DNA of 64,000 nt from Arthrobacter sp. MYb229 (GTDB lineage: Bacteria > Actinomycetota > Actinomycetes > Actinomycetales > Micrococcaceae). Below, piece after piece: positions 27,375-31,492 of the stretch. Numbering within the stretch: position 1 is the stretch's first letter; each line of letters starts with the position of its first letter. Made by a program: the position numbers and the translations under genes. The notes under the pieces are model-generated. The model did no database searches and was not told where the DNA came from. It saw nothing but the letters and a program-made list of their open reading frames with translations. The stretch spans positions 620,001-684,000 of the forward strand of contig NZ_PCPS01000002.1 of assembly GCF_002975405.1 (NCBI RefSeq), read 5' to 3'.

Positions 27375-27929
27375 ATGAAGAAAGTAACCAAGGCGACTGT
27401 AGCGGCCGTTGCCGCGGGTGCCCTGTTGCTCGGCGGCGCCGGTACGGTGGCCCGTTGGCAATCACAGCAGACGGTAGACGCGGGCGTGGTTGAGACCGGC
27501 CATCTGAACCTGACTCTGGGCGCCGACGGCGTTTGGCAAGATGTCAGCAACGCGGCAGCGCCGGAGCCCTTCGATCCTGCAACGCAGCAGCTTGTGCCTG
27601 GCGATACGGTGACCTATAGCCAGACCGTCGCAATTGACGCCGAGGGCAAGAATATTGCCGGTGTCTTGAGCATTGCCGAAGCCGAGACCGTGTTGGGCGC
27701 GCTGGAGGGCTTTGTGACCGTGGGGCTTGAAGTTGACGCCTCGGCCACTGGCATCACGGAAGAACCTGACGGCACGCTGAGTTTTGCCGAGCCAGGTACC
27801 TACAACGTTCCGGTGTTGATTACCGTTGTCTTTGCTGAAGGCGCCGTAGGCGACACGCCGCCGTCAACCTATGACCAGCCTCTTGACTTGGGCGACCTGA
27901 CCTTGACTTTGGACCAAGTCCGCTCCTAG
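27375..27929 (+). CDS. Alternate-type signal peptide (SipW-dependent-like) exported protein A
   Basis: A 184-residue secreted protein. The signal has a Lys-rich start (MKKVTKATVAAVAAG), a Gly/Ala-rich core and a non-classical end, GTVARWQSQQTVDAG, where an aromatic residue follows the cleavage region. This is the pattern of alternate-type/SipW-dependent signal peptides seen in TasA and camelysin relatives. The mature part is acidic and rich in beta-forming residues, with the shared ETGHLNLTLG segment. It is the first gene of a locus with two matching peptidases, and probably a surface or fibre protein. Exact function unknown. Confidence 0.8.
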   Translation: MKKVTKATVAAVAAGALLLGGAGTVARWQSQQTVDAGVVETGHLNLTLGADGVWQDVSNAAAPEPFDPATQQLVPGDTVTYSQTVAIDAEGKNIAGVLSIAEAETVLGALEGFVTVGLEVDASATGITEEPDGTLSFAEPGTYNVPVLITVVFAEGAVGDTPPSTYDQPLDLGDLTLTLDQVRS

Positions 27930-27954
27930 GTAACGAACGCGGGATAGCCCCTAT

Positions 27955-28542
27955 ATGCCCAAGCCTCTGAAGTTTGCGTTGATAGCGGCCGTGCTTTTGG
28001 TGCTCGGACTCGGCGCCCAAGGTACGGTCGCTTCGTGGCGCGCAGAAAGCAGTGTGGATCCCGGAACGCTGCAGACCGGATCCTTGCAGTTGCTTGCCGG
28101 TGATGGGGTAAACGGTATGCAGCATTACCAGTTCTCGCAGCTCAGCAGCGGCAACCTTGTCCCGGGGCAATTCACGCAGGCGCCACTGGTGATCAGCAAT
28201 GGCGGCACCAGCGATCTGGGCTATCGGCTGGACGGAGCGGTCAACGCGGCAACTTCACCCACTGCCGCTGATATTGCCTTGTCCGAAGCAAGCCAGTTGC
28301 GCATTCATGCCGGTATGCCTGCCTCCGCTTGCGAAGCTGGGCAGCCGCTCTCTGGCGAGCAACTTTATGCAGGTTCGCTAGGGGATGCTGCGGAGTTTGC
28401 AGCGCCCAGACCGTTGCCGGCCGAAAGCGCTGGGGGCGAAGAAACCCTATGCGTGCGAGTCTCGCTTCCTGCTGGCGCGTCCCAGACAGCAGCCGGCGGG
28501 AAGCTGGAACTCAGGCTGGGCTTTGTCGGGCAGCAGCGATGA
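27955..28542 (+). CDS. Alternate-type signal peptide exported protein B
   Basis: A 195-residue secreted protein similar in plan to its upstream neighbour. The signal-like N-terminus is MPKPLKFALIAAVLLVLGLG followed by GTVASWRAESSVDPG, and the mature part starts with LQTGSLQLLAGDG. Two Cys (about residues 124 and 162) may form a disulphide. The stop overlaps the start of the peptidase gene that follows (ATGA at 28539-28542), so expression is coupled to it. The likely role is a TasA-like subunit; this is inferred. Confidence 0.78.
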   Translation: MPKPLKFALIAAVLLVLGLGAQGTVASWRAESSVDPGTLQTGSLQLLAGDGVNGMQHYQFSQLSSGNLVPGQFTQAPLVISNGGTSDLGYRLDGAVNAATSPTAADIALSEASQLRIHAGMPASACEAGQPLSGEQLYAGSLGDAAEFAAPRPLPAESAGGEETLCVRVSLPAGASQTAAGGKLELRLGFVGQQR

Positions 28543-29108
28543 CCGTGCAAACACGAGCGGAGCTCAGAAAAGAACGTGAAAAGACTGGCCTGTTTTGGTG
28601 GAGCGGACAACTTGCCTCTTGGTTTGCCCTCTTCGTTGTGCTGGCTTTGATCGCCGTCATGATCGTAATCCCAAAACTTGGCGGTGCCACAGCCTATACC
28701 GTGCTGACAGGTTCCATGCGGCCAGAGTTCCCTCCTGGGTCGTTAATCGTAGTGCGGCCTGCAGATACGGAAGAGATCCGGATTGGCGATGTGGTGACCT
28801 ACCAGCTGAAGTCCGGAGAGCCTGAGGTGGTGACCCACCGGATCGCCGCCGTTAGCTCGTCCTTGTCGGGGGAAATTCAATTCACGTTGCGCGGGGATGC
28901 AAACAACACCGATGACGATCCGGTAAGGCCAGAGCAGATCAGGGGCAAGCTCTGGTACTCGATGCCATTGCTCGGTTTCATCAATTCGGCCATTTCCGGC
29001 CAGCAGCGCACTTGGCTGACCTGGGCTGCCGCAGGGGGCCTGCTGGCCTACTCGATGATCATGTTCGCCGGAGCTTGGCGCGAGAATCAACGAAAGGAAC
29101 GGACATGA
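28539..29108 (+). CDS. SipW-type signal peptidase I (first)
   Basis: A 189-residue membrane peptidase of the ER/SipW class, which uses a Ser/His dyad instead of Ser/Lys. An N-terminal helix (about 25-45) precedes the catalytic Ser59 in LTGSMRPEFPPGS, His100 is in VVTHRIAAV, and the conserved GDANNTDDD box follows. A second helix lies near the C-terminus (about 160-178). Its start overlaps gene B and its stop overlaps the next gene by four bases each. It presumably cleaves the alternate-type signals of the adjacent exported proteins. Confidence 0.9.
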   Translation: MTVQTRAELRKEREKTGLFWWSGQLASWFALFVVLALIAVMIVIPKLGGATAYTVLTGSMRPEFPPGSLIVVRPADTEEIRIGDVVTYQLKSGEPEVVTHRIAAVSSSLSGEIQFTLRGDANNTDDDPVRPEQIRGKLWYSMPLLGFINSAISGQQRTWLTWAAAGGLLAYSMIMFAGAWRENQRKERT

Positions 29109-29782
29109 CTATTCGTCTTCACCCGGTCCTTTTGAAGGCCTCGGCCGCAGCGCTCATTGCATGTCTGAGTGCCGCTCCCGTCCATGCTCGGAGTGATCAA
29201 GATAGTGCCGGTGGCTTGAGCTATAGCAGTGATGGCAGGAATTTTTCACAGGCCCCACCGCCGCTGTTCGGCGGGGAGCCGGTTCTGGTGCCAGGCGATG
29301 AAGTCATTGGCGCACTGTGGATTCGCAACGACCGCGGCCTGGAGATAGAAGTTAGCGTGCAACCCAAGGATCCAGCAGCTCACACGCAAATCTATTTCGA
29401 GACAATCGGCTTGTCGCGCTTCCGGCTGGAACCGGAGGAATCGGTCAAAGTGGGACTGCGCATGGGGATGCCGGGGTCCGCGACGAACGGGTCGCAAGAT
29501 CAGGAAGAGCGTTCACTGCAGGTGCAGATCAACGCGGTCGAAATCGGCATAGGCAAGACACCGGAGCCCGAACCGTCGCAACCACCACGCGAAACCGACG
29601 CGCCCCCAGAAGCTCCTCCCGAAAAGAATACTCCGGATCAGCGCGATCAACTTAGCGATACGGGATTCAGCGGAGGGGTAATAGCATTGGGAATCGGTGC
29701 ATTGGCGGCTGGCTGTGCGGCCGTCATTCTCTCGTGGAGACAGAAACGAACTGAAGCAATAAGGGATGATGGCAAACGATGA
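29105..29782 (+). CDS. Exported protein with LSDTG wall-anchor-like C-terminus
   Basis: A 225-residue secreted protein. A classical signal peptide (about 1-28, ending near PVHARS) precedes an acidic beta-rich domain and a Pro/Glu-rich stalk (about 155-180). The C-terminus has LSDTG (residues 183-187), a hydrophobic helix and a basic RQKR tail, the layout of sortase-anchored proteins with Ser in place of Pro in LPxTG. It may anchor the locus products to the wall. It overlaps both neighbours by four bases. No sortase gene is in the window. Confidence 0.78.
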   Translation: MTIRLHPVLLKASAAALIACLSAAPVHARSDQDSAGGLSYSSDGRNFSQAPPPLFGGEPVLVPGDEVIGALWIRNDRGLEIEVSVQPKDPAAHTQIYFETIGLSRFRLEPEESVKVGLRMGMPGSATNGSQDQEERSLQVQINAVEIGIGKTPEPEPSQPPRETDAPPEAPPEKNTPDQRDQLSDTGFSGGVIALGIGALAAGCAAVILSWRQKRTEAIRDDGKR

Positions 29783-30354
29783 GCACCCGATCCATGCGTA
29801 TCAAGGCGATCCTGTCCATGGGAATTCTCGTGGGATTTGGCGCGGTCTCCACGTTGGCTGCGTGGACCGGCACCGCCACCGCGACCTCCAATATCAGTTC
29901 CGCTACTGTCGCCCTTGGAGTCGGCGCAACGGCAGGTGCAGCGAACGCAACTACCTATCAGATGCCTATTACCGGCAGTAATTTGTATCCGGGCACCAGC
30001 GCGGCATCCACGGTGGTTGTGAAAAATACGGGAACCATATCGGCTCCGTACACGGTTCAGGGAAAGATCACCGAATCAGGTGCTTCCACCCTGGGTGCGG
30101 GGCTGAACATCTCCGTCAAGATTGGCGCAACGATCAGCGGCAGCGGCACCAACGTCACGTGTTCAGGTGGAACGACCATAATCTCCAAGAGCGCCGGTGC
30201 GCAGTTCATCGGCTCATCGACTCCGCGCACTTTAGAATCTGGTGCCTCAGAGTCGCTTTGCATCCAATATGCTTTGCCGACAACAGCTGCCAACTCCCTG
30301 CAGGGCGCAACGACAAGCATTGGCCTGACCTTCACCTCAACGGTTGGTTCCTAG
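29779..30354 (+). CDS. Alternate-type signal peptide exported protein C (TasA-like)
   Basis: A 191-residue secreted protein with a SipW-type signal: basic start MSTRSMRIKAILSMG, a hydrophobic core, then STLAAWTGTATATSN, with a small residue and an aromatic after the cleavage region. The mature part is rich in Thr, Ser, Gly and Ala, with beta-strand periodicity and two Cys, typical of fibre or camelysin-like surface proteins. It is followed one base later by the second peptidase gene. It is the most TasA-like member of the locus. Confidence 0.8.
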   Translation: MSTRSMRIKAILSMGILVGFGAVSTLAAWTGTATATSNISSATVALGVGATAGAANATTYQMPITGSNLYPGTSAASTVVVKNTGTISAPYTVQGKITESGASTLGAGLNISVKIGATISGSGTNVTCSGGTTIISKSAGAQFIGSSTPRTLESGASESLCIQYALPTTAANSLQGATTSIGLTFTSTVGS

Positions 30355-30355
30355 C

Positions 30356-31492
30356 ATGGGGAATCATAAGTCCAAAAGGAATCGGGGCACGGGCCTCTCA
30401 GCATTCCAGCGGATCGTATTGAACGTAGGGGCGGCACTGGGTTCCCTATGCCTGATCATGACGGTCGCAACCATGATTTTTGGTCTAAAGCCCTTGATTT
30501 TTGCTTCCGGCTCCATGGAGCCGTCGATTCCGACGGGTTCCTTAGGGATCGCAGTGCCCACTGCTATCCACGAGATCAACCAGGACGAAATTGTCTCGGT
30601 GATAAATAGCGAAAATCAACGCATAACGCATCGGGTCGTCGAGAACTCAGATGCCGGTCTGGTGCTCAAGGGAGATTCCAACCCCATCCCAGATCTCGAA
30701 ATGTACCACGCGAGCACCGTCGATAAGCTTCTTCTCAGCATTCCTGTATTGGGCTATGCCGTTTCTTGGCTCAGCCAGCCTTGGGCATTTTTCCTCGGGG
30801 GACTGCTCTGTGCCTATCTGCTCTACATAGCCTTCGTTAGAAGCACCAACGATCGTGGAAGTGATCCTGGCAATACGAGTGAAGCAAGAAAGAACGCGTC
30901 CGAGATGCATGCCTCGGTCGAAGACGCAACCGGGTCGGCTCACAGATGGTCGAAACGCAAATCGATACGTGGGATCGCGGGCCTTGGTGCTCTTCTGCTC
31001 GTCAGCACGCTGATTGTCGGCACACCGAAGATCGAAATGACTCAGGCCGCCTTCGCGGGCAATGCGACGTCTACGTCATCGCCCGTTGCCGCCAGCGTGC
31101 CAGCGATCCCCGGCGCCCTGACCTGCACGACGGTTGGCGGCGTGCTGGGTGCCGCTACCAGTGCTGACGTGTCCTGGCCCGCGCCGGCTATGCCTGGTGG
31201 TGCTAAATATGCGGTTCGGGTGCAGTTCAACTCCGGTGAGGTTCGTTTTCTAAACGTCAACGCTGGCACTACTTCGGTGAGGTTCAGCGCCGGGCTGAGT
31301 CTGCTCGGAGCAATCCTCGGCACTGCCCAGACATTTGAAGTCAAGGTGCTCGTCGTGACAACAACTGATGGAGCTGCGGTCACCGAAATGGGCAGCAACA
31401 TCGGATGGTCCTCGCCGGTGGCTACGGCGCCGAAAACGACAATTCGATACCGGCCGGGAATTTTGCTGATCAACGATTTCTCGTGCGCGTAG
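30356..31492 (+). CDS. SipW-type signal peptidase fused to a substrate-like C-terminal domain
   Basis: A 378-residue protein in two parts. Residues 1-165 are a Ser/His signal peptidase: helix about 20-45, catalytic Ser53 in ASGSMEPSIPTGS, His92 in ITHRVV, a GDSNPIPD box and a second helix at 143-161. After a hydrophilic linker (165-202), residues 203-240 look like another alternate-type signal: basic RKSIRG, hydrophobic GLGALLLVSTLIVG, then EMTQAAFAGNATS. The remainder (240-378) is a beta-rich domain with a fibronectin-III feel (DVSWPAPAMPGGAKYAVRVQF). It looks like a peptidase joined to its own substrate. The enzyme call is firm; self-processing is inferred. Confidence 0.85.
   Translation: MGNHKSKRNRGTGLSAFQRIVLNVGAALGSLCLIMTVATMIFGLKPLIFASGSMEPSIPTGSLGIAVPTAIHEINQDEIVSVINSENQRITHRVVENSDAGLVLKGDSNPIPDLEMYHASTVDKLLLSIPVLGYAVSWLSQPWAFFLGGLLCAYLLYIAFVRSTNDRGSDPGNTSEARKNASEMHASVEDATGSAHRWSKRKSIRGIAGLGALLLVSTLIVGTPKIEMTQAAFAGNATSTSSPVAASVPAIPGALTCTTVGGVLGAATSADVSWPAPAMPGGAKYAVRVQFNSGEVRFLNVNAGTTSVRFSAGLSLLGAILGTAQTFEVKVLVVTTTDGAAVTEMGSNIGWSSPVATAPKTTIRYRPGILLINDFSCA

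Follow-up and report, generated by a model that had tools for sequence, protein, structure and literature searches.

A SipW-type export locus with two signal peptidases in Arthrobacter sp. MYb229, one of them joined to a probable alternate-signal passenger

Here we describe six genes that lie on the forward strand at positions 27375-31492 of a 64,000-nucleotide stretch of the Arthrobacter sp. MYb229 genome (contig NZ_PCPS01000002.1, positions 620,001 to 684,000; hereafter the window). The six open reading frames (ORFs) encode two Ser/His signal peptidases (P3 and P6), three alternate-signal proteins (P1, P2 and P5) and one LSDTG protein (P4). An initial annotation of this DNA saw in them a SipW-type export module with alternate signals and, probably, a wall-anchored member, which our analysis supports, and overlooked that gene 6 is a fusion: residues ~166-378 of P6 lie outside the peptidase and form a linker, then a second export signal, then a beta domain. 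P6 is very probably a signal peptidase joined to an alternate-signal domain of the fibronectin type III-like (Fn3-like) kind, which we call the passenger.

Architecture of P6 and its internal signal

P6 is twice the size of P3 (378 versus 189 residues). Its AlphaFold2 model (mean predicted local distance difference test score (pLDDT) 69.1, predicted template modelling score (pTM) 0.41) has a catalytic domain between two helices, a disordered linker, a third hydrophobic helix and an all-beta domain that spans residues 256-377 (Table 1). The peptidase part finds fold matches to SipA and LepB with Z about 10 and the passenger to Fn3-type domains with Z up to 7.9; in the passenger alignment three of 17 rows match PF00041 (Fn3), the best with an E value of 6e-5, and the window protein itself gives no match to that model. 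All 17 P6 sequences compared retain Ser53, His92 and Gly106-Asp107, and the Ser/His pair is also invariant in all 12 fused proteins from the genus. The linker changes fastest in three of the five pairs compared.

The third helix of P6 is followed by TQA↓AF (the arrow marks the predicted cut), which shares its pattern at positions -3, -1, +1 and +2 with GTVA↓RW, GTVA↓SW and STLA↓AW, which the initial annotation had recognised and which we find at the ends of the signal h-regions of P1, P2 and P5, and with TWA↓AF of TasA. An alignment of the 12 fused Glutamicibacter proteins shows no variation at T229, A231, A232 or F233, nor at Cys257 and Cys377 of the passenger. C-terminal tails of at least 120 residues occur in 38 of 56 distinct P6-type peptidases versus none of 64 P3-type ones (rows below 60 bits were dropped and identical domains counted once); five P3-type peptidases have tails of 71-115 amino acids, with the motif not at the right place. 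Glutamicibacter-type proteins account for 14 of the 38 fusions (L021-L031, L037, L046, L048). Among 31 non-redundant fusions the pattern [ST]xAx[FWY] follows the third membrane segment in 23, against 2.34 expected from shuffling, and control windows in the same proteins contain it twice at membrane helix 1 and once at helix 2; because the fusion rows are related, the shuffling probability is far too small and the fraction, 23 of 31, is the useful figure. Fused passengers of a different, larger make-up, ~285-330 residues long and with a TEAYF or TSAVW motif, are present in L103, L104, L106 (second copy) and L108. A 1203-residue ORF of Actinokineospora enzanensis (L095, 6737-10348) may be an independent fusion of peptidase and cargo: its S26 peptidase domain comes first, and a long part that looks extracellular follows.

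The same domain also exists as a separate gene. In L033, L034, L035, L036, L052, L113, L114, L056 and L058 a passenger-type domain is encoded by a small alternate-signal gene of the same cluster that adjoins the peptidase gene or lies about one gene off; in Prescottella (L052) it overlaps the peptidase gene by four bases. Comparison by hhalign relates the Glutamicibacter-type fused set to these separate passengers with a probability of 97.5 (E 8.6e-12) and the other fused passengers to them with a probability of 95.4 (E 2e-8), scores to which the signal motif, taken into the alignment, contributes. At least two cysteines are found in 35 of 35 fused passengers (exactly two in 34; first-to-last spacing 78-121), L105, L112 and L115 of the 38 fusions having been set aside beforehand, and in all nine stand-alone passengers, which were picked by hand (spacing 93-116). 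Judged by these similarities, the passenger resembles a substrate that became attached to a peptidase. Mean pairwise identity among the 12 fused Glutamicibacter proteins is 63% in the peptidase part and 42% in the passenger, and four of ten pairs whose peptidases are at least 70% identical have passengers that are at most 40% identical, as if passengers had been exchanged. At 5120-6381 of L034 the peptidase seems to have its second membrane helix in the next ORF, in another frame and joined to an LPXTG-type protein, which would reflect either a frameshift or a real arrangement.

Distribution of the locus and pairing of peptidases with substrates

A contig scan with the P6 sequence (P0006) alone found no relative; a scan with a family alignment collected 61 loci. 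Eight loci (L038-L045), whose contigs have the same lengths as those of L022, L023, L026, L027 and L029-L032, were treated as repeats of these and dropped from the counts. Since the loci were collected through P6, its presence is by design and its company is the result: P3 is present in 36 of 50 P6 loci and absent from 12 that carry a second P6 subgroup; in the remaining two, which carry the first subgroup, the stretch fetched contains no P3. The genes run in the order P1...P3...P5-P6 in 35 of the 36 loci with both peptidase types; in the exception (L110) the gene ahead of P6 scores better as a P2 than as a P5, and the order is otherwise the same. These dual-peptidase loci include representatives from Nocardioides, Marmoricola, Rhodococcus, Prescottella, Williamsia, Dietzia and Glutamicibacter/Arthrobacter, so that we have abandoned the initial view of the two-peptidase layout and its gene order as unusual. 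Of 17 other genomes from the genus that were searched, 12 have all six genes in the same arrangement, with the fusion unbroken in 11 and gene 6 interrupted by a stop in one, which excludes an order brought about by chance. In a survey of the class covering 296 genomes, the window's own included, a P6-type domain is present at E<=1e-20 in at least 27, a lower bound that was drawn from the best 11 candidates per genome and includes rows grouping with P3 in the tree.

P3-type and P6-type peptidases form the two sides of one branch (support 96 in the Shimodaira-Hasegawa-like approximate likelihood ratio test, SH-aLRT) in a quick tree of 93 rows in which 43 of 90 forks are open and from which five Glutamicibacter loci and low-scoring rows were left out. 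Explaining which P6 rows of this tree are fused takes a minimum of four changes, and we infer, with the root left aside, that the simplest history is one old fusion followed by a few later separations.

Substrates keep company with particular peptidases. Of 52 loci with a P3-type peptidase, 46 encode a P1-type protein, as do two of the 14 loci without one; of 50 loci with a P6-type peptidase, 44 encode a P5-type protein, as do three of the 16 without one. Related loci were weighted equally in these counts. This co-occurrence fits the earlier proposal of one peptidase per substrate subset in a form short of strict, and suggests that each peptidase most likely serves its own substrates.

Three further observations concern individual loci. 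L048, on a scaffold of Sporosarcina beigongshangi (Bacillota), is a Glutamicibacter-like six-gene locus on a stretch of 55-67% G+C; we did not adopt it as a spread to Firmicutes, as its G+C content suggests a contaminant scaffold, which it probably is, and it was nonetheless counted in the sets of 36 loci and of 38 and 31 fusions and kept in the tree. L104, L106 and L055 contain tandem repeats of whole or partial modules. In L032 (genome G009), P5 is 89.5% identical to P5 of the window versus 31-72% for the neighbouring genes, a pattern that suggests local recombination.

Processing of the passenger and the question of fibres

We lean slightly towards a dual SipW-type export module in which P3 and P6 each have their own substrates, P6 carries a cleavable passenger and fibres are assembled. 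P3 would process P1 and P2, and P6 would process the TasA/BsaA-like P5 plus the passenger that it carries at its C-terminus. Three membrane passes are predicted for P6, with its N-terminus inside, the catalytic domain outside, the linker inside and the Fn3-like domain exported by the internal signal; the passenger would then be freed by a cut at TQA↓AF, made by P6 in cis or in trans, or by P3. By analogy with TasA, P5 may take part in donor-strand assembly through the N-terminal strand (AF...) that cleavage would free, and the passenger perhaps likewise; the passenger would serve as a minor subunit that starts, caps or confers adhesion, and P4 would be the wall anchor. That the passenger is cut at all is probable; that P6 itself makes the cut is plausible, though we would not quite back it, and that a self-processing P6 releases a fibre starter or cap for P5, one initiator per enzyme molecule at the place where the main subunit matures, is a tentative idea. 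If the latter were true, actinobacteria would swap the passenger and keep the enzyme, and so vary the specificity of the tip without altering the export machine.

Several observations weigh against this reading. The motif is missing in eight of the 31 fusions (L048, L053, L055, L057, L101, L105, L112, L115): in L112 and L115 the fusion partner of the P6-type peptidase is an LPXTG-type protein whose signal is of the ordinary AxA kind, and a passenger-like ORF adjoins; L105 seems to have lost the third membrane segment; and the remainder have variants such as STEAAM or GTFAAL. The relatedness of the 31 rows, noted above, belongs here as well. In the relative G009 (L032) an in-frame TAG stands between the peptidase and passenger of the P6 homologue, and in five of 12 relatives a start codon with a Shine-Dalgarno-like stretch precedes the passenger, at differing places; no internal start with a ribosome-site-like stretch was found at a conserved place across the 12 genomes, and on this ground a separate translation start for the passenger was not adopted. 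The confidence of the passenger model is intermediate, with per-block pLDDT values of 52-77. The division of substrates has exceptions, since P5-type proteins occur in three P3-only loci and P1-type proteins in two loci without P3. Finally, the beta-sandwich model of P5 aligns with TasA (5of1) at Z 7.9 (root-mean-square deviation 3.3, 131 residues aligned), tied with unrelated jelly rolls, above which the match does not rise.

That the unit builds fibres we regard as evenly balanced. P5 looks TasA/BsaA-like by the family matches of some relatives and weakly by fold: among the 22 rows of its alignment, at E<=0.1, 12 match TIGR04088, four match TIGR04090 (BsaA) and three match NF046066 (TasA). 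The P5 profile also gives a weak match, not significant alone (E 0.025), to the archaeal bundling protein AbpX, the matched region starting from the aromatic residue at the second position past the predicted cut. According to the cited papers, TasA has a Phe at P2' and is cut poorly by E. coli LepB, the aromatic P2' residue of its signal hindering this ordinary signal peptidase (PMC10269814); the TasA donor strand comprises residues 28-38, F29 included (PMC9674648); export and polymerisation of BsaA in C. perfringens need SipW (PMC7395162); and TasA, CalY and CapP of B. cereus are all described as processed by SipW (PMC13082335). Taken together, these matches and precedents make a fibre plausible. 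It is possible, if rather less likely than the module outlined above, that the locus exports separate surface or secreted proteins, such as adhesins or binding domains, and no fibre. P4, the passenger and the large passengers elsewhere do resemble ordinary surface domains, and P5 of the window itself matches no fibre family; the matches of some P5 relatives to the TIGR04088, BsaA and TasA models count against this alternative, and the AbpX match can be set against it as well.

Somewhat more doubtful is the notion that the third membrane segment of P6 stays uncut and holds the Fn3-like domain outside, tethered beside the active site as a docking or assembly platform for substrates, rather as SipA of Streptococcus assists in polymerising pili. 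In the fold comparison of the P6 peptidase domain, Streptococcus pyogenes SipA leads the list (Z 10.8 over 89 residues) in a tie with LepB and SPC-C, and the title of its record calls it a signal peptidase homologue essential for pilus polymerisation; a fusion also preserves a 1:1 ratio and the location. T229 and A231 (positions -3 and -1), however, are invariant although the preceding linker is free to change, and in the homologous stand-alone domains a normal N-terminal signal is followed by a motif of this kind; both findings count against a tethered domain.

It is improbable that P6 is a degraded or regulatory copy, with P3 doing all the cutting. P6 is barely above the TIGR02228 cut-off (53.3 versus 51.85 bits), yet its Ser53, His92 and Gly106-Asp107 do not vary in the 17 sequences, and a P6-type peptidase occurs without a P3-type one, in the stretches fetched, in 14 of 50 P6 loci, nine of which have P5-type substrates. 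A sequencing or gene-calling artefact, to which the stop in G009 and the seemingly absent third segment of L105 might point, can practically be dismissed, since 12 genomes of the genus, the window's own included, have a frame that runs unbroken through the junction, as do Nocardioides, Rhodococcus and Williamsia.

Gene layout, protein families and related systems

Table 1. Features of the locus, in window positions
Feature	Position	Strand	Basis
P1, alternate-signal exported protein, 184 aa, ...GTVA↓RW	27375..27929	+	TIGR04089 125.7 bits; motif position
P2, alternate-signal exported protein, 195 aa, ...GTVA↓SW	27955..28542	+	TIGR04088 24.5 bits
P3, ER-type (endoplasmic reticulum-type) SipW-like signal peptidase, Ser59/His100, 189 aa, no extension	28539..29108	+	TIGR02228 84.5 bits; own clade
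P4, ordinary-looking signal and C-terminal LSDTG, membrane segment, basic tail, 225 aa	29105..29782	+	Sequence
P5, TasA/BsaA-like alternate-signal protein, 191 aa, ...STLA↓AW	29779..30354	+	Relatives' family matches; beta-sandwich model
P6, signal peptidase fused to alternate-signal passenger, 378 aa	30356..31492	+	One open frame; 11 other intact fused relatives in genus
P6 membrane helix 1, residues 16-42	30401..30481	+	AlphaFold2 model
P6 S26 catalytic domain, residues 45-129, Ser53, His92	30488..30742	+	Human SPC-C 7p2q, E 9.2e-5; well predicted in model
P6 membrane helix 2, residues 142-160	30779..30835	+	AlphaFold2 model
P6 variable disordered linker, residues 166-204, predicted cytoplasmic	30851..30967	+	pLDDT <50
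P6 helix 203-221, putative internal signal h-region	30962..31018	+	Model; hydropathy peak 2.17, basic residues ahead
P6 predicted internal SipW-type cleavage motif, T229-Q-A-A-F233	31040..31054	+	Conservation
P6 predicted released passenger, residues 232-378, Fn3-like beta domain, Cys257/Cys377	31049..31489	+	Model; Fn3 matches

The six same-strand genes lie where the initial annotation had placed them, with four-base overlaps at three of the five junctions, a gap of 25 bases between genes 1 and 2, and a gap of one base between genes 5 and 6 that holds unless an alternative TTG start of gene 6 at 30344 is used. Its catalytic pairs for P3 and P6 are likewise found at the residues it gave, and its LSDTG protein is P4, in which the motif begins at residue 183; the signal end of P4 (VHA↓R), the LSDTG and the basic tail were recognised by eye, and no LPXTG model of Pfam or NCBIfam matches. 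A scan for promoters and terminators gave no more matches than shuffled sequence (1 versus 2.1 expected; 5 versus 4.4), and we therefore claim nothing about the ends of an operon.

In NCBIfam, P1 exceeds the cut-offs of TIGR04089 (125.7 versus 60 bits) and TIGR04088 (20.4 versus 19), and P2 exceeds that of TIGR04088 (24.5 versus 19) and falls below that of TIGR04089 (32.5 versus 60). Both P3 (84.5) and P6 (53.3) pass TIGR02228, the model for ER-type/archaeal-type signal peptidase I; they stay below the Pfam Peptidase_S26 cut-off of 22.9 (21.5 and 12.2) and do not reach the 190 bits of the Bacillus SipW equivalog NF046067 (73.7 and 43.7). P4 and P5 have no Pfam or NCBIfam family above cut-off, and P5 of the window matches neither TIGR04088 nor TIGR04089 nor any TasA/camelysin family in these collections. 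Both ER-type peptidases above the TIGR02228 cut-off in the 4.0-megabase genome sit in this locus, which is also the only place where TIGR04089 is matched, by P1 and, below cut-off, by P2; the one sortase above the PF04203 cut-off is encoded elsewhere.

No paper among the literature matches listed describes this actinobacterial locus or a peptidase joined to a passenger. Firmicutes are the source of the SipW/TasA-type fibre systems in the papers cited here, and the window locus represents an ordered two-peptidase form found in several actinobacterial families, whose second enzyme usually carries cargo with the kind of signal that such enzymes cut. If that cargo is cleaved, P6 would be a natural enzyme-substrate fusion that shows directly which peptidase cuts which signal, and it would show how a fibre could start at the membrane.

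Four known systems invite comparison. P6 shares with Streptococcus SipA (4n31) the S26 fold and a tie to a surface polymer; unlike SipA, for which we know of no fused passenger, it retains the Ser/His dyad. The TIGR04088 and TIGR04089 families describe N-terminal signals, and P1 belongs to both and P2 to TIGR04088; unlike these proteins, the window locus also has such a signal inside a peptidase. The sipW-bsaABCRSD operon of C. perfringens resembles the locus in that the BsaA model finds four of the 22 aligned P5 sequences, and differs in having one sipW, regulators within the operon and, in the portions of its description available, no fusion, whereas the six window genes are without regulators. 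As in tapA-sipW-tasA of B. subtilis, an ER-type peptidase adjoins substrates whose alternate signals have an aromatic residue at +2, and one product is perhaps a jelly-roll fibre subunit; unlike that operon, the window locus has two peptidase clades, a different gene order, an LSDTG protein and a peptidase-cargo fusion.

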